Source: a virus. From it: a stretch of 46,752 bases of DNA. The first letter of the stretch is position 1. Each line of letters begins with the position of its first letter. Below, piece after piece: positions 870-30,011 of this stretch. Position numbers and translations under genes: made by a program. The stretch covers positions 1 to 46,752 of the IMG/VR virus record IMGVR_UViG_3300009285_000812. One strand, written 5' to 3'. Under the pieces are notes generated by a model, which made no database searches, was not told the origin of the DNA, and worked only from the letters and a program-made list of their open reading frames with translations.

Positions 870-1299
870 GGAAGATTGGGAACTGGTTTTAGCATGGCGA
901 AACTCACCGCTCATTAACAAGGGCTTTTATTCCCAGTCCAATGGGCATTTAATCCAGTGGGATGAGCATTGTAAATGGATAGAGTCACGCGCTAACTGGA
1001 TGTACTTCATCATCGAACATGAAGGCCGGAGAATCGGCGGTGTGACTTTAGGGCAACTGGATCACTGGTCGCCTGAGATAGGCTACTTCATCGGTGAAGT
1101 CACGCTATGGGGCAAGGGACTGGGTAAGCAAGCTGTCGAAATGGCGATAGCATGGCTCAAGGAAAAGGGTTACAAGTACTGCCACACTACAGTATTAAAT
1201 GACAATATGAGGTCACGGAATCTCTTGGAATCACTTGGATTTACCTATATGGCAGAGGCAAGACCCGGCGAAGTGTGGATGCAGAAATGTGTGGCATAG
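847..1299 (+). CDS. GNAT N-acetyltransferase (RimJ/RimL or PseH-like)
   Basis: A 150-residue single-domain GNAT protein. The N-terminus (MKLREL..EDWELVLAWRN) and the acetyl-CoA loop WGKGLGKQA at about residues 90-98 are typical of the RimJ/RimL group, which includes PseH and LegH, the enzymes that acetylate 4-amino sugars in pseudaminic and legionaminic acid synthesis. Its place between a GPS-motif protein and glmS supports an amino-sugar substrate (inference). Translation probably starts at TTG 847, overlapping the upstream stop by 23 bp, with GGAGG at 828-832 rather far upstream. The 3' end overlaps glmS. Confidence 0.8.
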   Translation: MKLRELRREDWELVLAWRNSPLINKGFYSQSNGHLIQWDEHCKWIESRANWMYFIIEHEGRRIGGVTLGQLDHWSPEIGYFIGEVTLWGKGLGKQAVEMAIAWLKEKGYKYCHTTVLNDNMRSRNLLESLGFTYMAEARPGEVWMQKCVA

Positions 1300-2831
1300 T
1301 CGGCTATATCTCAGACAGGGACGTTGTTCCTTTACTCTTAAAGTCTCTTAAACTCTTGGAATATCGGGGATATGACTCGTCGGGGATAGCTGTAGTGAAC
1401 GGGACGCTTAAAGTAGACAAGTGTATCGGGTCTATCGAGTCTGACCTACATGGCAATCTGGGAATCGGCCATACAAGGTGGGCGACACATGGTAAAGTCA
1501 CTAAGGAAAACGCTCACCCCTTTGTGGATTGTAGTGGAACCATCGCTATCGTCCACAACGGCATTATCGAAAACTATCAGCACCTTAAAGACGATTACCC
1601 CAACCATACCTACACGTCGGAGACAGATTCGGAAACTATCGTCCACCTAATAGAAGAAACCCCCTGTCTGGATTTTGAGGATGAAGTTAGATGTGCTGTC
1701 AGTAATCTACAGGGCAACTTCGCCATCCTTGCCGTTAAAGAGGGCGAGAATCGAATCGTAGCGGCTCGTAGAGGCAATCCCTTATATGTCTCAGATGGTT
1801 GCGCCTCATCCGATAACATTCTAGGCGGACGGTTACTCGATGATAATGAGGTTGTTTCTATCTATCCGGCTGCGGTAAAAGACACCGCAATCGCAGTAAA
1901 TCATACCATGCTTGAGGAAATCCTTGAGCAGGGTGATAAAAAGTGGGAGCTACGGGAAGCCGCACTCGAAGTTTTAAGAGCGAGGGACATAACCTTTATA
2001 GGTTGCGGCAGCTCCAGGTACGCCGCCATCGTTGGCAGGTTCTTCTTCTCGCGGATCGCGGGCGTCTCATGCGATGTCGTTCTGGCCTCAGAGCTACAGA
2101 ACTTTGCGGAGAGCATCAACCGTCATTCACTTGTGATAGCTATCTCTCAAAGCGGTGAAACGGCTGATGTCATTGACGGAGTTCGACTGGCGAGGGAACA
2201 CAAAGCGAAGGTCATCTCCATAATCAACCGGCCTGATTCGCTACTCTCCAGACTTTCAGACATCGTGATACCCATGAACTGCGGGCCGGAACTGGCGGTG
2301 GCGGCTACCAAAAGTTTCACTTCGACATTGTGCATCTTATATCACCTGGCCCATGAGATGGTCGGTAAGACTTGTAATGTGGAACCCTTCATGTCGGACT
2401 GTAAGGAAGTCCTGCAAGGTGACGACGTTTATTTGATAGCTAAAGGAATCAATTATCCGATAGCTTTAGAGGGTGCATTGAAGCTCAAGGAAATCACCTA
2501 CATCCACGCTGAAGCCCTACCCGCCGGTGAACTGAAGCACGGTAGTCTGGCGCTTATCGAGGATGGTACACCGATTATCGCCGTCTGCCCTAGAGACGAA
2601 AACTTCGACGCCTGTATTAATAACCTGATGGAAGCGAAGACAAGGGGTGGATACATCATCGGCATCTCCGACGTTAATCATCCGGTGTTCGATAGGTGGA
2701 TACGGATTCCCAACAGTTCCCCAATGGCCTGTGTTGTTCCCTTGCAGATGATGTCTTATTACACTTCTAAAGCGCGAGGGCTGAATCCAGAGAGGCCGCG
2801 TTCTTTAGCGAAATCGGTCACTGTTAAATGA
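1287..2831 (+). CDS. glmS: Glutamine--fructose-6-phosphate aminotransferase
   Basis: Makes glucosamine-6-phosphate from fructose-6-phosphate and glutamine. ATG 1287 is chosen because it gives MCGIVGY, placing the nucleophilic Cys directly after Met as the Ntn-glutaminase domain requires; GTG 1275 would add four residues. Visible motifs are HTRWATHG, NGIIENY and SETDSE in the glutaminase half, GCGSSRYAA and SQSGETADV in the first SIS domain, and the C-terminal signature ending LAKSVTVK. At 514 residues it is about 90 shorter than usual bacterial GlmS, yet all catalytic signatures are present, so it is probably active. The stop overlaps the next start (ATGA). Confidence 0.95.
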   Translation: MCGIVGYISDRDVVPLLLKSLKLLEYRGYDSSGIAVVNGTLKVDKCIGSIESDLHGNLGIGHTRWATHGKVTKENAHPFVDCSGTIAIVHNGIIENYQHLKDDYPNHTYTSETDSETIVHLIEETPCLDFEDEVRCAVSNLQGNFAILAVKEGENRIVAARRGNPLYVSDGCASSDNILGGRLLDDNEVVSIYPAAVKDTAIAVNHTMLEEILEQGDKKWELREAALEVLRARDITFIGCGSSRYAAIVGRFFFSRIAGVSCDVVLASELQNFAESINRHSLVIAISQSGETADVIDGVRLAREHKAKVISIINRPDSLLSRLSDIVIPMNCGPELAVAATKSFTSTLCILYHLAHEMVGKTCNVEPFMSDCKEVLQGDDVYLIAKGINYPIALEGALKLKEITYIHAEALPAGELKHGSLALIEDGTPIIAVCPRDENFDACINNLMEAKTRGGYIIGISDVNHPVFDRWIRIPNSSPMACVVPLQMMSYYTSKARGLNPERPRSLAKSVTVK

Positions 2832-3514
2832 TTTTACTTATCGGTGGTACTGGCACTCTAGGCAAGGAAATCGCCCGTCTAACTAAATGCAGGGTCTACT
2901 CAAGGAACGAATACTGGCAATGGCTCTGTAAGCAAGAACTCCCTGATAACGAATATGTTATCGGAGATGTGAGGGACTATGACGCACTCAGGGGAGCCGC
3001 CGAAGGATGCGAACAGGCTATTAACTGCGCCGCCCTCAAGCACATTGACCATTGTGACCAGAATCCCTCAGAGGCAATTAAGACTAATATCATCGGGGCG
3101 GAGAACGTTCTTAGACTTCATCTACCGGCAACGCTTGTCTCGACGGATAAAGCGGTATCCCCTGAAGGTCTGTACGGGGCGACTAAACTCGTTGCCGAGC
3201 ATCTATTCCTCCTACATCATCAGAGCGTGGTGCGCCTGCCCAATCTGTACGGTTCCACTGGTTCTGTCATCGAACTGTGGCGAAGACAACACGAACTAGG
3301 GCAACCACTTACCATCACCGATAAGCTGTGTTACAGGTACTTTATCGACACAGTAGAAGCGGCGAAGTTTGTTCTTCAGGCAAAACAAGGTCTTAATATC
3401 CCTCCCTGTCAGGAATACAATATCTGGGACTTATGTGAAAAACTCTATCCTAACGATGAGAAGCGGATTATCGGACTCAGACCGAATGAAAAACTGAGAG
3501 AGGAGTTAAGGTGA
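2828..3514 (+). CDS. NAD(P)-dependent UDP-sugar 4,6-dehydratase, PseB/LegB-like (short form)
   Basis: An extended-SDR protein of 228 residues. It opens with the Rossmann loop GGTGTLGKEIA and then has AALKHIDHCDQNP and TNIIGAENV, the active-site STDKA, and YGATK carrying the catalytic Tyr and Lys. It ends with GLRPNEKLREEL, a signature of PseB/CapD-type dehydratases. Such enzymes open nonulosonic acid pathways by acting on UDP- or GDP-GlcNAc. Typical family members are about 330 residues; here the C-terminal substrate domain is shortened. It overlaps glmS by 4 bp and the next gene by 4 bp. Confidence 0.85.
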   Translation: MILLIGGTGTLGKEIARLTKCRVYSRNEYWQWLCKQELPDNEYVIGDVRDYDALRGAAEGCEQAINCAALKHIDHCDQNPSEAIKTNIIGAENVLRLHLPATLVSTDKAVSPEGLYGATKLVAEHLFLLHHQSVVRLPNLYGSTGSVIELWRRQHELGQPLTITDKLCYRYFIDTVEAAKFVLQAKQGLNIPPCQEYNIWDLCEKLYPNDEKRIIGLRPNEKLREELR

Positions 3515-3717
3515 AAATCAGATTGTGGCTCATTAAGTTGTTGTGTAAACACATAAACTGGGGTGATATTGATTACACAGAAATACCCGAAGGGACAGAG
3601 ATTACAGGGCTTGCGGTCTTGGGTAAAAATGGTCGGATAATCAACAGAACCAAACATACAAATTATATCACCAAAGGGACAGTCTTTACCATCCATTGGG
3701 GATTTGTATGTCTATAA
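3511..3717 (+). CDS. Small hypothetical protein in the sugar island
   Basis: A 68-residue protein starting at GTG 3511 behind AGGAG and overlapping both neighbours. It has a basic N-terminus (MKIRLWLIKLLCKH), then a strand-rich segment with PEGTEITG and HTNYITKGTVFTI. I do not recognise a family. Its place within a run of overlapping genes suggests co-translation with the dehydratase and the NeuB-like enzyme. Confidence 0.6.
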   Translation: MKIRLWLIKLLCKHINWGDIDYTEIPEGTEITGLAVLGKNGRIINRTKHTNYITKGTVFTIHWGFVCL

Positions 3718-4352
3718 TCAGCGAGGTGGGCCAGAACTTCTGCGGCGATATCGACTTAGCCAAGAAGATGATTCTACTGTCAAGGGATAACGGGGCGGGA
3801 TTAGTCAAGTTCCAGCTTTTTGATTCTATGAAACTCTACGGCGAACCCGGTCACAACGAACTATCATTTGAACAAGCTAAAGAACTTTTCGACTTTGGTA
3901 GGGACAATAATATTGAAGTCTTTTTCTCTGTCTTTGATACAAACAGGGTGAGGTGGTGCGAGAAGATTGGGGTCAAGCGATACAAAATCGCCGCAAGGTG
4001 GAACAAAGACGAACTTCTAAGAAGTGCGATCATCTCGACAAACAAACCATGTTATATGTCGTTTGAAGGTGGCTATGCTCCTGTTCCTAGTAACTGGAAA
4101 AAGATGTGGTGTGTATCGAAATACCCTGCGCAACTTTCAGAACTGCATCTCCCTGAACCCTACTTCGGATATTCCGACCACACCGTAGGACTGAGTGCTT
4201 GTAAAGTGGCAATTGCAAGAGGGATGTCCCCTGTAGAAAAGCACTTTTGTGTAGACCATAACACAGGTGTGGACGCCCCGTGGAGTATGACCCCTGACGA
4301 ACTCAGAGAATTAGTTGAATGGGAGAAAACGTGTCAAACAGCGTTGCGGTAA
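3708..4352 (+). CDS. NeuB/SpsE-like nonulosonic acid synthase, TIM-barrel domain only
   Basis: Members of this family condense phosphoenolpyruvate with a six-carbon amino sugar to give sialic, legionaminic or pseudaminic acid. Recognisable segments are SEVGQNF at the N-terminus, KFQLFDS, SVFDTN, FGYSDHTVGLSA and VEKHFCVDHNTGVDAPWSMTPDEL. ATG 3708 is chosen because SEVGQN should lie within the first ten residues. At 214 residues the protein is far shorter than the usual ~340 because the C-terminal SAF (antifreeze-like) domain is absent. That domain closes the active site of the partner subunit in NeuB dimers, so activity of this form is uncertain. It overlaps the cytidylyltransferase gene. Confidence 0.85.
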   Translation: MSIISEVGQNFCGDIDLAKKMILLSRDNGAGLVKFQLFDSMKLYGEPGHNELSFEQAKELFDFGRDNNIEVFFSVFDTNRVRWCEKIGVKRYKIAARWNKDELLRSAIISTNKPCYMSFEGGYAPVPSNWKKMWCVSKYPAQLSELHLPEPYFGYSDHTVGLSACKVAIARGMSPVEKHFCVDHNTGVDAPWSMTPDELRELVEWEKTCQTALR

Positions 4353-4924
4353 TCACTTCACGGTTCAATTCAACAAGATTCCCCGGTAAGGCTTTAGCCC
4401 TCTTAAACAACAAGGAACTCTTAAAGTATCTGGTTGAGACAGTGGAAGCCGCTGGCTTACCGTGTGTCATAGCCACAACTGACACCTCGCCTAAAATCAT
4501 CGAGTTCTGCGTCAGGAACCATATTCAGTGTTCTGTGTCGAATAATGAGGACGATCTTCTTGGTAGAGTGTACTACGCTTCTCTGGGTTACGAGACAGTC
4601 GTTAGGCTCTGGGGGGATGCGCCGTTTGTTTCTCCACAGGTTATCGAGGAGGCTATTTCGGGATACCACGAGACCGGAACAGACTACTTTACCTTCAAGA
4701 ATATGGATACCGGAGAATGTGTTGCCGTTACCTCAAGAGACCTTCTAGGCAAACTCCATCGTACAATAGACGAAGCTAAAGACAGGGAGTGGATACACAC
4801 CTACATGAGCAATCTCCCCGGCTCGGTAACGCGCATGAGGGCTTGTGGCGGGCAGAGAATGTTAATCGACACCCCTGAAGACTTGAATAAGATACGGGAG
4901 CAAGCGTGGGTATCTCTGCTGTAG
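4331..4924 (+). CDS. SpsF/NeuA-like cytidylyltransferase
   Basis: A nucleotide-sugar transferase fold protein of about 197 residues. SRFNSTRFPGKAL near the N-terminus matches the nucleotide-binding loop of acylneuraminate cytidylyltransferases and SpsF. VVRLWGDAPFVSP carries the metal-binding Asp, and EWIHTYM and LIDTPEDL resemble later motifs. The predicted role is activation of a nonulosonic acid as its CMP derivative, following the NeuB-like step. GTG 4331 has GGGAG five bases upstream and is preferred; ATG 4319 is an alternative. The gene begins inside the end of the NeuB-like gene and its own 3' end overlaps the next start. Confidence 0.85.
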   Translation: MSNSVAVITSRFNSTRFPGKALALLNNKELLKYLVETVEAAGLPCVIATTDTSPKIIEFCVRNHIQCSVSNNEDDLLGRVYYASLGYETVVRLWGDAPFVSPQVIEEAISGYHETGTDYFTFKNMDTGECVAVTSRDLLGKLHRTIDEAKDREWIHTYMSNLPGSVTRMRACGGQRMLIDTPEDLNKIREQAWVSLL

Positions 4925-5631
4925 AGTGGGACGAACTCAACGAAAAATCAGAGCAAGGCACAATCTTTTCCTCGACTAAATGGTTAGATTTATTCGGTAA
5001 CTACGAACTAAAAGGGGTTTATAAAAAAGATAATCTAATCGGAGGTATAGCCGACTTCGGAGAAGCCAAACCCTTAACTCCGTTTCAGAGCGTCCTTACC
5101 CTCAAGAACCCACAACAGGTCATGGAGGCGCTGGATGTCAAGTATGTGGTCAATCACTACACCCTACCAGATATCAGACCTTTCCTGTGGCGCGGATATA
5201 AACCACTTGTCCGGTACACGTATATCGTTCGACCTGAATGGGGACTACTTGATAAGGACACCCGTAACCTTGTACGGAAGTACGACTTGCCCATTGGTTC
5301 GGACTTCGGGTATCTGGACGCTCTTTACAGTCTTACCTTTGAACGTAAAGGACTTCGACGACCTATCGACTCAGCTTTCCTAAAAAAAGTCTGCGACATG
5401 GGAACCATCTACACCTGCGACGGGGCCGGAGTGGTTATCATTCGGGACGATAAAAGAGCGTACTACATCATAGGCGCGTCAGACGGCACAGGGACTTCCA
5501 GTTACCTTTTATGGAACGCGATTAAGGATGAAAGAGAGGTTGATCTTGTCGGGGCTAATCAAAAAGACATCGCCAGTTTCAAGAAATCCTTCGGGGGAGA
5601 ACTCAAAGTATACTGCGGAGCCACTTTATAG
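4906..5631 (+). CDS. FemAB/BioF2-like GNAT-fold acyltransferase
   Basis: A 241-residue protein starting at GTG 4906 with GGAG five bases upstream. The C-terminal half has the pattern SSYLLWNAI then DLVGAN and FKKSFGGELKVY, typical of FemAB/CelD-like GNAT proteins found in polysaccharide clusters, where they acylate or aminoacylate sugars or peptidoglycan precursors. A role in decorating the sugar made by this island is inferred. It overlaps the cytidylyltransferase gene by 19 bp and the next gene by about 100 bp. Confidence 0.65.
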   Translation: MGISAVEWDELNEKSEQGTIFSSTKWLDLFGNYELKGVYKKDNLIGGIADFGEAKPLTPFQSVLTLKNPQQVMEALDVKYVVNHYTLPDIRPFLWRGYKPLVRYTYIVRPEWGLLDKDTRNLVRKYDLPIGSDFGYLDALYSLTFERKGLRRPIDSAFLKKVCDMGTIYTCDGAGVVIIRDDKRAYYIIGASDGTGTSSYLLWNAIKDEREVDLVGANQKDIASFKKSFGGELKVYCGATL

Positions 5632-6346
5632 CGCGATTATAGGCTGCGGTAGGATTGGCTGCGAGTTCCCAGACTCCCATTTGAAGGCTTATTTAAACAA
5701 CCCCCAGATTATGCTTATGGGGTTGTGTGATACCGACATCGCCAAAGCGTACAAATACACCGCTAATAATATCAGCGATAATCCCCAAACCTTTACCTCA
5801 ACTCTGATGATGTCTTACGGGAAATTAGACATCCTTTCAATCTGCACTCCGCCTTCTACCCATAGGGAATTAGTCGAAGCCTCTGCGCCTTATGTCAAAG
5901 CCATATGGTTAGAGAAGCCTATAGCTGAAACACTAGAAGATGCCGATGAGATTATTAAGGTCTGTAAGCATTACGGCATTCTCCTACAGGTCAATCACCA
6001 GAGGCGAAGCACTCTCCCGACCTTCAGGTTCTCAAGGGGCTGGCTTAATTCAGGAACTCACGCTATCGACTTACTGAGACAGAGCTTCGGGGAAATCGAA
6101 TCGGCCAATCAGGACTTCGTATATTTCAAGAACGGTACGGTAGTCAGGATTATTTATCAGAATACCACCGAGCCGATCTTTCACTTAGATATGACTCATT
6201 CAGGCGAACCAATGCTTCCCGCCATGCTGGAAAATATTATAGACGCCTTATCCGGTTCTCCGTTACTTTCCCCAGGTGAAGAGGCTCGCGAGACATTAAA
6301 GTGGGTGCTTAAAATGAAAGGGGACTATGAAACATCCTGTAATTGA
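5528..6346 (+). CDS. Gfo/Idh/MocA-family sugar oxidoreductase
   Basis: An NAD(P)-dependent sugar dehydrogenase-like protein. The Rossmann loop IIGCGRIGCEF lies at about residues 37-47, followed by SICTPPSTH and the family signature WLEKPIAET with the catalytic Lys. The second domain is compressed but retains GTHAIDLLRQSFG. The start is unresolved: ATG 5528 has no spaced ribosome-binding site, while TTG 5546 has GAGAGG six bases upstream; both leave about 30 extra residues before the Rossmann strand. Similar oxidoreductases often sit beside SpsF and NeuB genes in surface-sugar loci, so a step in the same pathway is likely. Confidence 0.85.
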   Translation: MKERLILSGLIKKTSPVSRNPSGENSKYTAEPLYSAIIGCGRIGCEFPDSHLKAYLNNPQIMLMGLCDTDIAKAYKYTANNISDNPQTFTSTLMMSYGKLDILSICTPPSTHRELVEASAPYVKAIWLEKPIAETLEDADEIIKVCKHYGILLQVNHQRRSTLPTFRFSRGWLNSGTHAIDLLRQSFGEIESANQDFVYFKNGTVVRIIYQNTTEPIFHLDMTHSGEPMLPAMLENIIDALSGSPLLSPGEEARETLKWVLKMKGDYETSCN

Positions 6347-7439
6347 AGACGGTGATATCAAGGAAGTAAACGAGGTTCTCAGAAGTGGGAACCTTTCGCT
6401 TTTCAGGGGGTGTCCTGCGGGTCAGGACGGCGGGCCTAAAGTACAATCGCTGGAAGCCGCTTTCAGGGACTATTTCAAGGTCAAGTGGGCGGTAGCCTTT
6501 AATTCAGCCACAGCAGCCCTCCACGCCGCTTGTGTGGCTTGTAGGGCGGATATCACTATCGTTTCCCCGTTTACTTTCGTGGCTTCGGCATCATGCGTCC
6601 TTCAAGCGGGTGGTAAGGTCGAGTGGTGTGATATTGATGAAAACATCTTCTGTATGGATGTTATTAAAAATCAGAATGAAATCTGGGCGAGGTCGTCTCG
6701 AACCAACACAATTATTCCTGTTCATTTAATGGGTCATTCGGCGGATATGGACGCTATTATGTGGTTTGCCGAAATAAATGGGCATCTAAGAGTTATTGAG
6801 GACTGCTGTCAGGCCATAGGCGCGGAATACCACGGCAGGAAAGTCGGAACCATCGGAGACTGCGGGGTATTCTCTTTCAATCAGAGTAAGACCGTAAGTA
6901 CCGGCGAAGGCGGGATGCTCATTACAGACAACGACTGGATTGCCCGCGTCGCCAGAGCCGTACGAAACCACGGCGAAGTCTCCGACCCTGAATTAAAGAT
7001 CGTGGGCTACAACTACAGGATGACCGAGTACACCGCTTCGCTGGCTCTAAGCCAGTTCAAACGATTAGATGCAATGAATGACCATCGGAGAGCATTGTGT
7101 CAGTATATGTCACGCCACCTCGATTACGGGCCATTTGAACCACCTATCGAACAAAAAGATTGCAAGCACGTTTACTACACTTACGCTTTAAAATACCACG
7201 GGGATGACCGTGACGAATACCAGCAAAGACTAATTGATAACGGCGTGTTCTTCGGTAGAGGCGGATATGTCAAGCCCTTGTATCATTTACCAATCTTCGG
7301 CATACAAGAGGAAATCTGCCCCGTGGCCGAACGGATGCACCAGAAAGAGATTATGGTTACGGACATATTTAGGCCACCGATGACTTATTCAGACTGTGAC
7401 CATATTTTAGAGGTAATGAAATGCCAGTTGAAAAAATAG
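6327..7439 (+). CDS. DegT/DnrJ/EryC1/StrS PLP-dependent sugar aminotransferase
   Basis: A full-length 370-residue sugar aminotransferase. Motifs include FNSATAALHAA in the PLP phosphate region, PVHLMGHSADMD, VIEDCCQAIGAEYHGRKVG with the conserved Asp, and SFNQSKTVSTGEGGML carrying the Schiff-base Lys. Family members such as PseC and LegC transfer an amino group to the 4-keto sugar made by a PseB/LegB dehydratase, so this probably supplies the amino step of the island. Unlike the other island enzymes it is near normal length. It overlaps both neighbours by about 20 bp. Confidence 0.92.
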   Translation: MKHPVIEDGDIKEVNEVLRSGNLSLFRGCPAGQDGGPKVQSLEAAFRDYFKVKWAVAFNSATAALHAACVACRADITIVSPFTFVASASCVLQAGGKVEWCDIDENIFCMDVIKNQNEIWARSSRTNTIIPVHLMGHSADMDAIMWFAEINGHLRVIEDCCQAIGAEYHGRKVGTIGDCGVFSFNQSKTVSTGEGGMLITDNDWIARVARAVRNHGEVSDPELKIVGYNYRMTEYTASLALSQFKRLDAMNDHRRALCQYMSRHLDYGPFEPPIEQKDCKHVYYTYALKYHGDDRDEYQQRLIDNGVFFGRGGYVKPLYHLPIFGIQEEICPVAERMHQKEIMVTDIFRPPMTYSDCDHILEVMKCQLKK

Positions 7440-24995: not shown

Positions 24996-25790
24996 CTAGA
25001 AAGCGCTGAGTTTTCCTTCCCAGACGATCTCAGCCTTCTCGCCAGAATGTAGCCGCCAGGTTTTACCATCAAAAGAAGCGACTAAACCGCGTTTCCATAA
25101 ATCCACAGCGGATTGATAAGGGTATCCGTCTGTTTTGGGTGCGTATTCCCATTCGGTTATTTCAGTAAATAAACTCCCAACTAAAGCCCAGACCGAAGCC
25201 CAGACCGAATCCCAGACCGAATCCCCGACCGAAGCCCTGACCGAAGCCCAGACCGAATCCCCGACCGAAGCCCTGACCGAAGCCCAGACCGAAGCCCCGA
25301 CCGAATCCCAGACCGAATCCCCGACCGAATCCCAGACCGAAGCCCTGACCGAAGCCCAGACCGAAGCCCCGACCGAAGCCCTGACCGAAGCCCTGACCGA
25401 AGCCCAGATTTTGAGAAGTTCTATGTCTTCCTCTGTGGGTATTCTCCTGGGAAGTTTTAACGGGTTAACTGGATTTCTGGCCTTGTCTAGGTCTATCCCT
25501 TTGTAAATCTGTTCCTTCCATTTACCAAACTCTATCCAGCACAAATCCTTTTTCTTTTTTGTTAGCCACCGAGGAGTCGTGTTTTCATCCACCTTAAGCG
25601 TCCACTTATCTTCGGGGAACAAATAACCTTTGTCTGGTGTAATCTCGATTTTGGCGAACTTGATTACATCCCCATCCGTAGTGTCATCTTTGATCCCAGC
25701 CATTTCAAGTAACTCGTCATGCGAGTCTTTACCCGCTTGCCAGATTACTCGCCCGTCCTTAGTGATGATACAGGAATACGCTCTACACAT
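24996..25790 (-). CDS. Tetrapeptide-repeat (A/D-S-V-x) protein
   Basis: A 264-residue protein in three parts. Residues ~1-125 form a globular N-terminus (MCRAYSCIITKDGRVIW, DSHDELL, WTLKVDENTTPRW). Residues ~128-203 are about 19 tetrapeptides (A/D)SV(W/R/G), encoded by a 12-bp DNA repeat. The C-terminus (KRGLVASFDGKTWRLHSG) is again globular. A period of four with small residues and Val suggests a regular beta coil or fibre-like rod. Function unknown. Confidence 0.75.
   Translation of the reverse strand: MCRAYSCIITKDGRVIWQAGKDSHDELLEMAGIKDDTTDGDVIKFAKIEITPDKGYLFPEDKWTLKVDENTTPRWLTKKKKDLCWIEFGKWKEQIYKGIDLDKARNPVNPLKLPRRIPTEEDIELLKIWASVRASVRASVGASVWASVRASVWDSVGDSVWDSVGASVWASVRASVGDSVWASVRASVGDSVWDSVWASVWALVGSLFTEITEWEYAPKTDGYPYQSAVDLWKRGLVASFDGKTWRLHSGEKAEIVWEGKLSAF
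25184..25408 (-). repeat. 12-bp tandem repeat, about 19 copies
   Basis: On the plus strand the unit is CC(C/A/T)GACCGAA(G/T)C with substitutions almost only at three positions. It is in frame with the tetrapeptide of the 24996-25790 protein, so gain or loss of units changes length but not frame. Confidence 0.95.
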
Positions 25791-27122: not shown

Positions 27123-27797
27123 GTGACGATGCCCACAGAAAAACAAGCGGGGGGCGGGGTTAAAGCCGCTCTCCTTTATTGTGACAACGAAACCCTCCGG
27201 CTCATGGCGTGGCGGAACTACCGGGGCATTAAAGACGACCAGCTTATCTTTAACCTACAGGAAGCAAGGCAGAAACTAGACGACCTCGATAGTTGCCCGG
27301 AGGTATTCAACCCCCCGCTTAATGTTCCTCAAGGCGAATACGTTGACCATCTAAAGTACTTCTTTGAGCAAAGCGTAGCATCCATCGAGGCGGAGTTCAC
27401 CCGCAGGGATAAGATACAGACTTGCTACCGGCCCGCTGATCCCAGAATCATCGAGACTATAAAATCCCGCCTGGAGATAGACGAAATACTGGCGGAGTAC
27501 ACCGAGGTCTTTTACAACAAGGGGCGCATTACCTACAGGTGCACATTACATGGGACGGACTCGACACCTTCGGGTGTAATCTACAAGGCGGAGCAAAGGT
27601 GCTGGTGTCACGGGTGTTCCAAAGGTGGAGACGTGTTCGACGTGGTACAGGCTTTCGAGAGACTAAGTTTACCCGAAGCGATTAGTAAACTGGCACGGAA
27701 ACTGGGGCTGGACACTGAACGTATTAGTTCTAATGGTAATAAGGGGGATAGTAAGGGGGGTTCTAAAAAGGACGAGGGGAAGACTTGGGACGTTTAG
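27123..27797 (+). CDS. CHC2 zinc-finger (DnaG primase-type) protein without polymerase domain
   Basis: A 224-residue protein. Residues ~135-170 form a CHC2 finger: YRCTLHG ... CWCHGCSKGGDVFD, with ligands C-x2-H and C-x2-C. It is followed by FERLSLPEAISKLARKLGL, the helical tail typical of DnaG N-termini. No TOPRIM catalytic domain follows in this gene or the next, so it is either a primase recruitment/recognition subunit or a stand-alone module working with host primase. GTG 27123 or ATG 27129 may start it. It ends just before the iteron array. Confidence 0.8.
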   Translation: MTMPTEKQAGGGVKAALLYCDNETLRLMAWRNYRGIKDDQLIFNLQEARQKLDDLDSCPEVFNPPLNVPQGEYVDHLKYFFEQSVASIEAEFTRRDKIQTCYRPADPRIIETIKSRLEIDEILAEYTEVFYNKGRITYRCTLHGTDSTPSGVIYKAEQRCWCHGCSKGGDVFDVVQAFERLSLPEAISKLARKLGLDTERISSNGNKGDSKGGSKKDEGKTWDV

Positions 27798-27802
27798 TTC
27801 GG

Positions 27803-27895
27803 TGTGACAAATGTGACATCCGTGTGACATTAATGTGACAATGTGTGACCAGTGTGACAACAAGGGGTAAATGTGACAGATGTGACCAATGTGAC
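27803..27895 (+). repeat. TGTGAC iteron array, candidate replication origin
   Basis: Nine direct TGTGAC copies start at 27803, 27812, 27823, 27834, 27844, 27853, 27872, 27881 and 27890. Spacing is 9-11 bp (one 19-bp gap), close to the DNA helical repeat. The array lies between the CHC2 gene and the ATPase gene, and the last three copies lie in the ATPase reading frame (VTDVTNVT). Confidence 0.75.
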
Positions 27896-28760
27896 AATTA
27901 AAGAGGATGTCAACCTTACGGGGGCTATACGTGAGTACCTAAAGGCTAATCCTGGCTGGAAGTTTACTACAGCACAAATAGACCAAGAGTTTGTGCTGGG
28001 GACTTTCAGCGAACGAGCTAGGCGGCGTAAGGCGTTAGAACGGCTCAAAGAAGAGGGGCTGATTGAACATTCCTCCGGGCAATGGCGTGTCAAGAACCTG
28101 CAAGCCGAGCCTATAAATTATTTGGAATCTCAAGGTATCCCAGTCCCGCTGTCATGGCCTTTTGAAATCGAGAAGTATGTCAAGATATTCCAGCACAACA
28201 TTATTATTATTGCCGGGGCAAAGGACGCTGGTAAAACAGCTTATCTATTAAACTTTGTTCTTATGAATATGTACGAGCATGGAGATATTAGTTATTTTTC
28301 CAGCGAGATGTACGGCGACGAGATGAAAGAACGCCTGTTAGGGTTTGAGCAAGCGGGGATGATAGGACTAAAAGATTGGTTATTCCACCCCTTCGCACGT
28401 AACGGTGACTTTCAAGATGTTATTGATCCCACGGGAATAAATATCATTGACTATTTGGAAGTGACGGAGAACTTTGCCGAGATTGGGCGGCCCATTAGGG
28501 CCATTTTTGATAAACTGACCACAGGGATAGCAATTATAGCTCTTCAGAAAAACCCATCAACAAGTGATTACGAAATTTTATTAGCGCGTGGCGGGACATC
28601 GACGATGGAGAAATCCCGCCTTTATCTTTCGTTAGATAAGGGGAAAATGAAGATTGTTGTCGGCAAGAATCGTGTCAATCCCCGCGTTGATCCTGTTAAT
28701 AAGACATGGAACTTCCGCCTTGAGGGTGGCTGTAAATATACGAATGTGGTGAGTTTATGA
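27873..28760 (+). CDS. Winged-helix plus RecA-like replication ATPase
   Basis: A 295-residue protein starting at GTG 27873, preceded by AGGGG. Residues ~15-75 look like a winged helix (FTTAQIDQEFVLG, RRRKALERLKEEGLIEH). A RecA/RepA-type ATPase core follows, with Walker A GAKDAGKTA at ~115-123, a Walker B-like strand INIIDYLEV and the C-terminal sensor region SRLYLSLDKGKM. It probably acts as replicative helicase, loader or initiator. The iterons immediately upstream are likely its binding sites (inference). Confidence 0.75.
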   Translation: MTDVTNVTIKEDVNLTGAIREYLKANPGWKFTTAQIDQEFVLGTFSERARRRKALERLKEEGLIEHSSGQWRVKNLQAEPINYLESQGIPVPLSWPFEIEKYVKIFQHNIIIIAGAKDAGKTAYLLNFVLMNMYEHGDISYFSSEMYGDEMKERLLGFEQAGMIGLKDWLFHPFARNGDFQDVIDPTGINIIDYLEVTENFAEIGRPIRAIFDKLTTGIAIIALQKNPSTSDYEILLARGGTSTMEKSRLYLSLDKGKMKIVVGKNRVNPRVDPVNKTWNFRLEGGCKYTNVVSL

Positions 28761-28953: not shown

Positions 28954-29001
28954 ATGGAGAATAGAACCTGTATAGGTTGCTCTGGAAAAGGATGGCTATG
29001 A
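28954..29001 (+). CDS. 15-residue CxxCxGxG miniprotein frame
   Basis: A tiny frame (MENRTCIGCSGKGWL) with a DnaJ-like CxxCxGxG motif. Its stop overlaps the methyltransferase start (ATGA) and its last codons contain the AAGGA for that gene. It may be a translated leader or a chance frame. Confidence 0.3.
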   Translation: MENRTCIGCSGKGWL

Positions 29002-30011
29002 GGTTCCTAGAACTCTTTGCGGGAGTAGGGGGATTTAGATATGGGCTTGAAGCCGTTAGTAATAGGGGATTTTCTGGGGAAAGGTTATCAGGGGGATGCA
29101 ATCTACGACACGAACGGGCTTGCGCCGACATTATCGGCGCAAGCGGGGAACAACAGCAAGGGTTCGGTTTTGATTGCGTGTGGTCAAACGAATGGGACAA
29201 GTACGCCGCTGCCATCTACCGATACCACTGGAACGACGGCACAATGCACGAAGGAGATATCCGGGCAGTTGACCCTGCTAGACTTCCAGCCCATGACCTC
29301 ATCGTTGGTGGATTCCCTTGTCAGGCTTTCTCGATTGCTGGCAAGCGGGGAGGATTCGCAGACGTACGAGGCACTCTCTTTTTTGAAATCTGCCGAATTG
29401 CGAAGGCTTGCGGAACTAAGTATCTATTCCTTGAGAACGTCAAAGGATTGCTTAATCACAAGGGCGGGGCTACATTTCAAACCATTATCTCAACGCTGGA
29501 TGAACTGGGGTATGACTGTCAATGGCAGGTGCTTAACAGCCGCAACTACGTACCCCAAAACAGGGAGCGCGTGTTCATTATCGCAAATCTTAGAAGCGAA
29601 TCCAGACCCCAAGTATTTCCTATCGGACAAAATTGCGAACCGGATATTGTCTTACCAGCCCTCACAACGAGATATTACGGGGGGCAAGCCAATGGTGGCT
29701 ATATCGGTTACGGACAGGCACACAGAACACCGTTGAAGTTCATGGAACGCAACCAGAAAAATATAGAGGGTGATTACGCTTTTACTATTGACAGTGTGAA
29801 CACAGGGGGCGTGAAAGTTGGTTCCTCAATCCGCCGCTTGACACCTACTGAGTGTGAAAGACTCCAAGCTTTCCCCGATGGATGGACCAAGTACGGTATA
29901 TTCAACGGTGGAACCAAAGAGATAAGCGACACGCAACGATACAAGACAATGGGCAACGCTGTAACCACGGCAGTCATAACGCATATCGGGAGGGTTTTTG
30001 TATGTTTATAA
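28998..30011 (+). CDS. DNA C5-cytosine methyltransferase with atypical insertion
   Basis: ATG 28998 has AAGGA five bases upstream. All catalytic motifs are present: motif I LELFAGVGGF, II VWSNEWDKYA, IV GGFPCQAFSIAGKRGG with the nucleophilic Cys, VI LFLENVKGLL, VIII QNRERVFII and X TMGNAVTTAVI. The target-recognition region (ALTTRYYGGQANGGY) is short. Between motifs I and II there is an unusual ~35-residue insertion (about 29050-29155) whose alternative frame looks TRD-like. It probably protects phage DNA from restriction; the target site cannot be predicted. Confidence 0.9.
   Translation: MRFLELFAGVGGFRYGLEAVSNRGFSGERLSGGCNLRHERACADIIGASGEQQQGFGFDCVWSNEWDKYAAAIYRYHWNDGTMHEGDIRAVDPARLPAHDLIVGGFPCQAFSIAGKRGGFADVRGTLFFEICRIAKACGTKYLFLENVKGLLNHKGGATFQTIISTLDELGYDCQWQVLNSRNYVPQNRERVFIIANLRSESRPQVFPIGQNCEPDIVLPALTTRYYGGQANGGYIGYGQAHRTPLKFMERNQKNIEGDYAFTIDSVNTGGVKVGSSIRRLTPTECERLQAFPDGWTKYGIFNGGTKEISDTQRYKTMGNAVTTAVITHIGRVFVCL
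29041..29736 (+). other. Long overlapping frame inside the methyltransferase gene
   Basis: The +1 frame stays open for 231 codons. Its first part (YDTNGLAPTLSAQAG) resembles the G-x-x-PTL motif of cytosine methyltransferase TRDs, and a later part reads SLSQILE..PDPKYFLS, which also resembles methyltransferase-family sequence. It could be a dual-coded protein, a relic of recombination between methyltransferase genes, or a shadow frame kept open by conserved codons. Not called as a gene. Confidence 0.35.
29119..29143. repeat. Perfect 10-bp inverted repeat in the methyltransferase gene
   Basis: CTTGCGCCGA (29119-29128) and TCGGCGCAAG (29134-29143) flank a 5-nt loop. It lies exactly in the unusual insertion between motifs I and II. 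Confidence 0.9.

Follow-up and report, generated by a model that had tools for sequence, protein, structure and literature searches.

Results

A loosely phased repeat array precedes a predicted replication ATPase gene

What function do nine copies of a single hexamer, TGTGAC, serve between two genes that appear to belong to a viral replication module? The repeats lie in a 46,752-base stretch of DNA from an IMG/VR virus record, which we refer to as the window. A sequence-only reading of this locus had suggested that the copies resemble an initiator-binding array and named autoregulation of the downstream ATPase as the alternative. Our comparisons indicate that the array very likely consists of initiator-binding iterons of a self-encoded origin, where protein binding and origin activity are what we infer from the comparative evidence. 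The features that matter for this argument are the following.

27123..27797, + strand: CHC2 zinc-ribbon (DnaG-type) protein, 224 aa, a possible primase partner (PF01807, E 7.3e-13; same gene order in locus L186)
27803..27858, + strand: candidate iterons 1-6, TGTGAC at 27803, 27812, 27823, 27834, 27844 and 27853; intergenic, exact matches, array position conserved in relatives
27862..27867, + strand: putative RBS-like AAGGGG, from sequence, inside the 19-bp gap of the array and 5 nt 5' of the GTG at 27873
27872..27895, + strand: candidate iterons 7-9, TGTGAC at 27872, 27881 and 27890, overlapping the GTG start and first ATPase codons
27873..28760, + strand: winged helix-turn-helix (wHTH) and DnaB/RecA-like (SF4) ATPase, 295 aa, proposed initiator-helicase (profile matches, predicted structure, Walker A)
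28005..28052, + strand: codons of the predicted recognition helix, residues 45-60, FSERARRRKALERLKE (AlphaFold2 helix; co-variation with iteron sequence)

All nine copies are exact, lie on the + strand and span 27803-27895. When the whole window was shuffled 200 times with dinucleotides preserved, TGTGAC reached a maximum of two copies per 95 bp, compared with the nine observed, and no hexamer of any kind exceeded four. The repeats described between the CHC2 and ATPase genes are real and far beyond chance, as is characteristic of the multiple short direct repeats of iteron-type origins. Start-to-start steps are 9, 11, 11, 10, 9, 19, 9 and 9 bp. The spacing of 9-11 bp given previously holds for all steps but one, a 19-bp gap having been overlooked. 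The description of the copies as helically phased also holds in part: the copies fit a period of 9.75 bp best (R 0.82) but cohere poorly at 10.5 bp (R 0.35), and phasing is therefore approximate and loose.

Three copies do fall in the ATPase frame and encode VTDVTNVT, as had been noted, the first of them starting one base before the GTG. Such a pattern could be a protein-level or low-complexity V-T-x codon repeat with no function in DNA, and some 9-bp TGTGAC arrays elsewhere in viruses are indeed GVT collagen-like or other coding repeats. Here, however, six of the nine copies are non-coding and the 10- and 11-bp spacings break the frame, making this explanation extremely improbable.

The adjoining gene encodes a predicted winged-helix SF4 ATPase

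The gene upstream of the array encodes a CHC2 protein, as claimed. The downstream ORF, 27873-28760, starts with GTG, and its translation contains a Walker A motif, GAKDAGKT. Its match to DnaB_C is weak (E 4e-5, under the Pfam cut-off). An AlphaFold2 model built from an alignment of 59 sequences has a mean pLDDT of 92 and consists of an N-terminal wHTH followed by a RecA-type core. The predicted wHTH elements are helices 4-24, 33-39 and 45-60 and strands 64-67 and 70-73, with helix 45-60 predicted to be the recognition helix of the winged helix. The top PDB fold matches are DnaB helicases, and matches in BFVD are phage replicative helicases. A RecA-like core with Walker A and a DnaB-like fold is expected of an SF4 helicase, and the predicted structure agrees with the winged-helix replication ATPase postulated from the letters alone.

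Homologues of the ATPase occur in Methanosarcina virus MetMV and a Methanomicrobiales virus. The MetMV and vir555 relatives carry an N-terminal Prim-Pol domain (PF09250), and Prim-Pol is fused to the wHTH-ATPase in 54 of the 84 relatives described below. The window protein has no such fusion; it stands alone, and CHC2 is encoded by its own gene upstream. The window DNA showed no similarity to known phages, and a plasmid search returned no relatives of the ATPase. Close relatives were not found with the ATPase alone, nor with the CHC2 protein in viral contigs. Just 3' of the ATPase gene, at 28977-30011, lies a gene for a C-5 cytosine DNA methyltransferase (PF00145, E 3e-74).

Array position is conserved among relatives

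Relatives were gathered by protein only, without use of the motif, yielding 57 viral and 41 genome loci, and 84 non-redundant loci (<90% identity) made up the first set. The seed alignment of the profile contained two loci, L055 and L067, that had been found through TGTGAC and are both among the 84. These two encode relatives of the window ATPase and were among the matches listed in a scan of viral contigs for TGTGAC triplets, where many of the triplets belong to unrelated viruses. We searched for any repeated hexamer and called an array where at least four phased copies of one hexamer lay within -400..+120 of the wHTH codons, the wHTH boundary being set by the profile match and not by the arrays.

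In many relatives this region contains a phased array built from another hexamer. Phased arrays surround the wHTH codons in 45/84 relatives (54%) versus 6/1270 control segments (0.5%) from the same loci. Because the segment limits and the phasing rule were fixed after a first look at this set, a second set is the fairer test; there, 17 of 38 further non-redundant loci (45%) have an array compared with 2/223 control segments (0.9%). An array beside or inside the proposed initiator gene, as in iteron-type origins, is thus conserved in position in about 60 non-redundant relatives. The remaining 60 of the 122, about half, score no array in this exact-hexamer test, which degenerate or different arrays may escape.

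The exact sequence TGTGAC is not the conserved signal. At least three copies within 120 bp are found only in the window and in three of the 98 loci (L172, L186 and L235), and GTGAC-containing arrays occur in a few further relatives. Consensus motifs are often TGT, TGC or TGA followed by three to four variable bases, for example TGTGAC, TGTAGAC, TGTCCAC, TGTCGTC, TGTAAGG, TGTTGACG and TGCTGACG. The motif is specific to each genome; the array is conserved, the exact motif rarely. Conservation in relatives was one point on which the sequence-only reading had staked its proposal, and L186, whose ATPase is 36% identical, shares both the motif and the gene order, with CHC2, TGTGAC array and wHTH-ATPase arranged as in the window. 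Every copy in L186 lies 5' of the start codon, entirely outside the ORF, which further argues against a codon repeat and indicates that VTDVTNVT is incidental and not a conserved protein feature.

Many relatives carry a second array within the wHTH codons

Arrays in the relatives occupy two places: the stretch before the wHTH codons, from about -260 to -20, and the codons themselves, with sites at about +20, +42, +52, +62 and +72. At least three phased copies lie inside the wHTH codons in 30 of the 84 relatives. In 21 of these 30 loci the 400 bp before the wHTH codons contain two or more copies of the motif found inside them. For motifs taken from other genomes the figure is 4%, and among 400-bp windows farther away it is 1.5%. 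The initiator-binding reading is supported by this pattern, a motif common to both arrays of one genome and different between genomes. The window has the upstream array only; a second array inside its wHTH codons is absent. The sites of the relatives use all three reading frames (145/101/151), and therefore selection acts on the DNA. This use of frames contradicts the protein-repeat reading. Very long related arrays, 10-12 copies of TGTTGACG or TGCTGACG, are present inside PrimPol-wHTH-ATPase genes of Humidesulfovibrio and Desulfovibrio (L234, L238 and L241), and these loci in bacterial genomes are probably proviruses.

The location of the arrays also bears on autoregulation, in which the ATPase, or some other wHTH protein of the virus, would sit on the array and do nothing but repress its own promoter or translation start. 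The window array does straddle the RBS-like sequence and the start codon. A weak promoter-like match, GTGACA - 18 nt - GACAAT at 27813-27842, overlaps it but is no commoner than in shuffles. In the standalone proteins of L162, L186 and L217, as in the window, the array is at the gene start. However, of the 45 relatives with an array, 35 have their first site 300 nt or more into the longest ORF, in most cases 500-1300 nt into PrimPol-wHTH-helicase genes, and a separate array within the wHTH codons would make no sense as an operator. Because most arrays of relatives sit deep inside the reading frame, away from the promoter of the gene, simple autoregulation is disfavored and we consider it unlikely. 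It may be a secondary effect of binding or a feature added in the standalone forms.

The repeat motif co-varies with the predicted recognition helix

If the ATPase reads the array, the repeat sequence should match its DNA-binding domain. We used partial Mantel tests of motif similarity against recognition-helix identity given ATPase identity, which permute loci and use no explicit tree. Motif and recognition helix are correlated in the first set (partial r 0.27, p 0.0005, n=45), in loci with upstream arrays only (r 0.32, p 0.0005, n=27), and in the combined set (r 0.31, p 0.001, n=62). Blocks of the ATPase were not significant in 19 of 20 cases (12/12 in the first test and 7/8 in the combined set), the exception being block 129-144 in the combined set (r 0.08, p 0.007). 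The region of helices 1-2 correlates with the motif as well, but its codons overlap the second array and this correlation is therefore not independent. Repeat sequence and DNA-binding domain of the proposed initiator are thus matched, as in iteron origins, at the level of statistical co-variation.

Arrays of the GTGAC type pair with the helices ARRRKAL (window), ASRRKIL (L186), ANRRKII (L249) and VNRRQIL (L236). The same type of array meets different helices in L172, L235 and L228, and so the code between iteron and helix is not one-to-one.

Because TGTGAC arrays are also found in unrelated viruses, the copies could be sites for a host protein or some other viral protein, such as a transcription factor or a factor for partition, packaging or copy-number control, that lie beside the ATPase gene by chance. 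The arrays, however, track the ATPase gene and not other segments, and the motif varies among related genomes and co-varies with the recognition helix of the ATPase itself. Moreover, those unrelated TGTGAC arrays that we examined are often within replication-initiator genes. We find sites for another protein very unlikely, even more so than autoregulation.

We took twenty proteins of unrelated viruses, selected for the overlap of their genes with a TGTGAC array. Of these, 8 match DnaD-like helicase loaders and 5 match replisome organizers, and replication initiation proteins are also represented. Genes for unrelated phage replication initiators or DnaD-like proteins have TGTGAC arrays in their middle, at 10-11 bp steps, in L048, L051, L054, L074, L088, L108 and other loci. 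A special enrichment of TGTGAC in viral phased arrays was not supported: the four-copy pattern occurs in 26 stretches versus 19 for scrambled TGTCAG, a control that shares a TGACA core on its other strand, and several hits are near-duplicates. Since this control is nearly as frequent in viral contigs, the hexamer alone is no mark of an origin. TGTCAG arrays with 11-bp steps lie shortly upstream of a TATAAT-like sequence in the related contigs L144, L147, L148, L155, L157 and L159, and are possibly an operator or another set of iterons.

A model for a proposed self-encoded origin and its relation to known systems

The computed results comprise the array, its conserved position, one motif across the two arrays of a genome, divergence of that motif between genomes, and co-variation with the helix. 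In our preferred reading, of the array as an origin, the nine TGTGAC repeats would be cognate iterons for the wHTH domain of the adjoining SF4 ATPase, with one wHTH per site of TGT plus variable bases, about one site per 10 bp. ATPase subunits would be concentrated on the array DNA so that a helicase ring could assemble there, and priming could come from the CHC2 protein or, in relatives, from the fused PrimPol domain. Physical binding, helicase loading and origin firing are the inferred parts of this scheme. No strong AT-rich unwinding element was evident beside the window array, where AT content is 54-60% compared with 52% overall, and the mean AT excess of relatives is only about +4% at -120..-40. 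GC skew was considered as evidence for an origin and found to be uninformative, its minimum being ~2 kb upstream of the array and tracking the switch in gene direction.

Several known systems share parts of this arrangement. Lambdoid O types differ in initiator-origin specificity. The lambda ori sits in the middle of the O gene, with iterons that are long (about 18 bp), near-palindromic and beside an AT-rich tract (PMC7466680). The likeness is in the placement of the iterons, within or next to the gene of their proposed binder. Unlike the SF4 ATPase that is the candidate initiator of the window, O is no ATPase and recruits host DnaB via P, and the sites here are 6-8 bp, asymmetric and about 10 bp apart, with no clear AT-rich tract found. 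The Rep proteins of SaPIs specifically recognize short iterons of their own element, which form two sets flanking an AT-rich region, and helicases of the SaPI/P4 type are SF3/AAA+. Elements of that type encode an initiator with helicase activity and a primase (PMC7145576). The element-encoded helicase-initiator and primase are a common trait, whereas the protein described here combines an N-terminal wHTH with an SF4 ATPase of the DnaB/RecA type, and one array of the relatives lies within the wHTH codons. Corynephage BFK20 gp43 is a PrimPol-helicase fusion, comparable with the window-protein relatives in which Prim-Pol PF09250 is fused to the wHTH-ATPase. It belongs to a Prim-Pol clade of replicases (PMC4538821). 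The window differs in that it lacks the PrimPol fusion and encodes CHC2 as a protein of its own. Lastly, several replisome organizers and DnaD-like loaders (Pfam Phage_rep_org_N) have TGTGAC arrays in mid-gene with 10-11 bp steps, but these are unrelated, non-ATPase proteins, and the hexamer they have in common with the window may reflect convergence.

A limited search of the open-access literature found no description of such arrays in this protein family, nor of a wHTH with iterons in PrimPol phage replicases. We think it reasonably probable that the window belongs to a widespread and seemingly undescribed family of helicase-initiators of viruses and mobile elements, whose own genes carry the binding sites, in many relatives partly within the codons of the recognition domain. 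Iteron and recognition helix would then diverge together as a readable natural code of origin specificity, in DNA that is dual-coded in three frames. If this is correct, sequence could show, for many uncultivated viruses and proviruses, where the origin probably lies and which sites its initiator prefers, and dozens of natural helix-iteron pairs would open wHTH-DNA specificity and origin incompatibility to direct tests. Iterons within codons of the proposed reader domain would also be an unusual overlap of coding for a protein and for DNA sites.

Two other regions of the window were noted. At 25184-25408 a 12-bp tandem repeat of 18.8 copies (90% match) lies within ORF 24996-25790 on the - strand and encodes four-residue (A/D)SV(R/W/G) repeats in a 264-aa protein that has no Pfam or PHROG match. 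At 1275-7439, PHROG matches to glutamine amidotransferase/aminotransferase-like and nucleotide-sugar epimerase genes are suggestive of glycan modification cargo.
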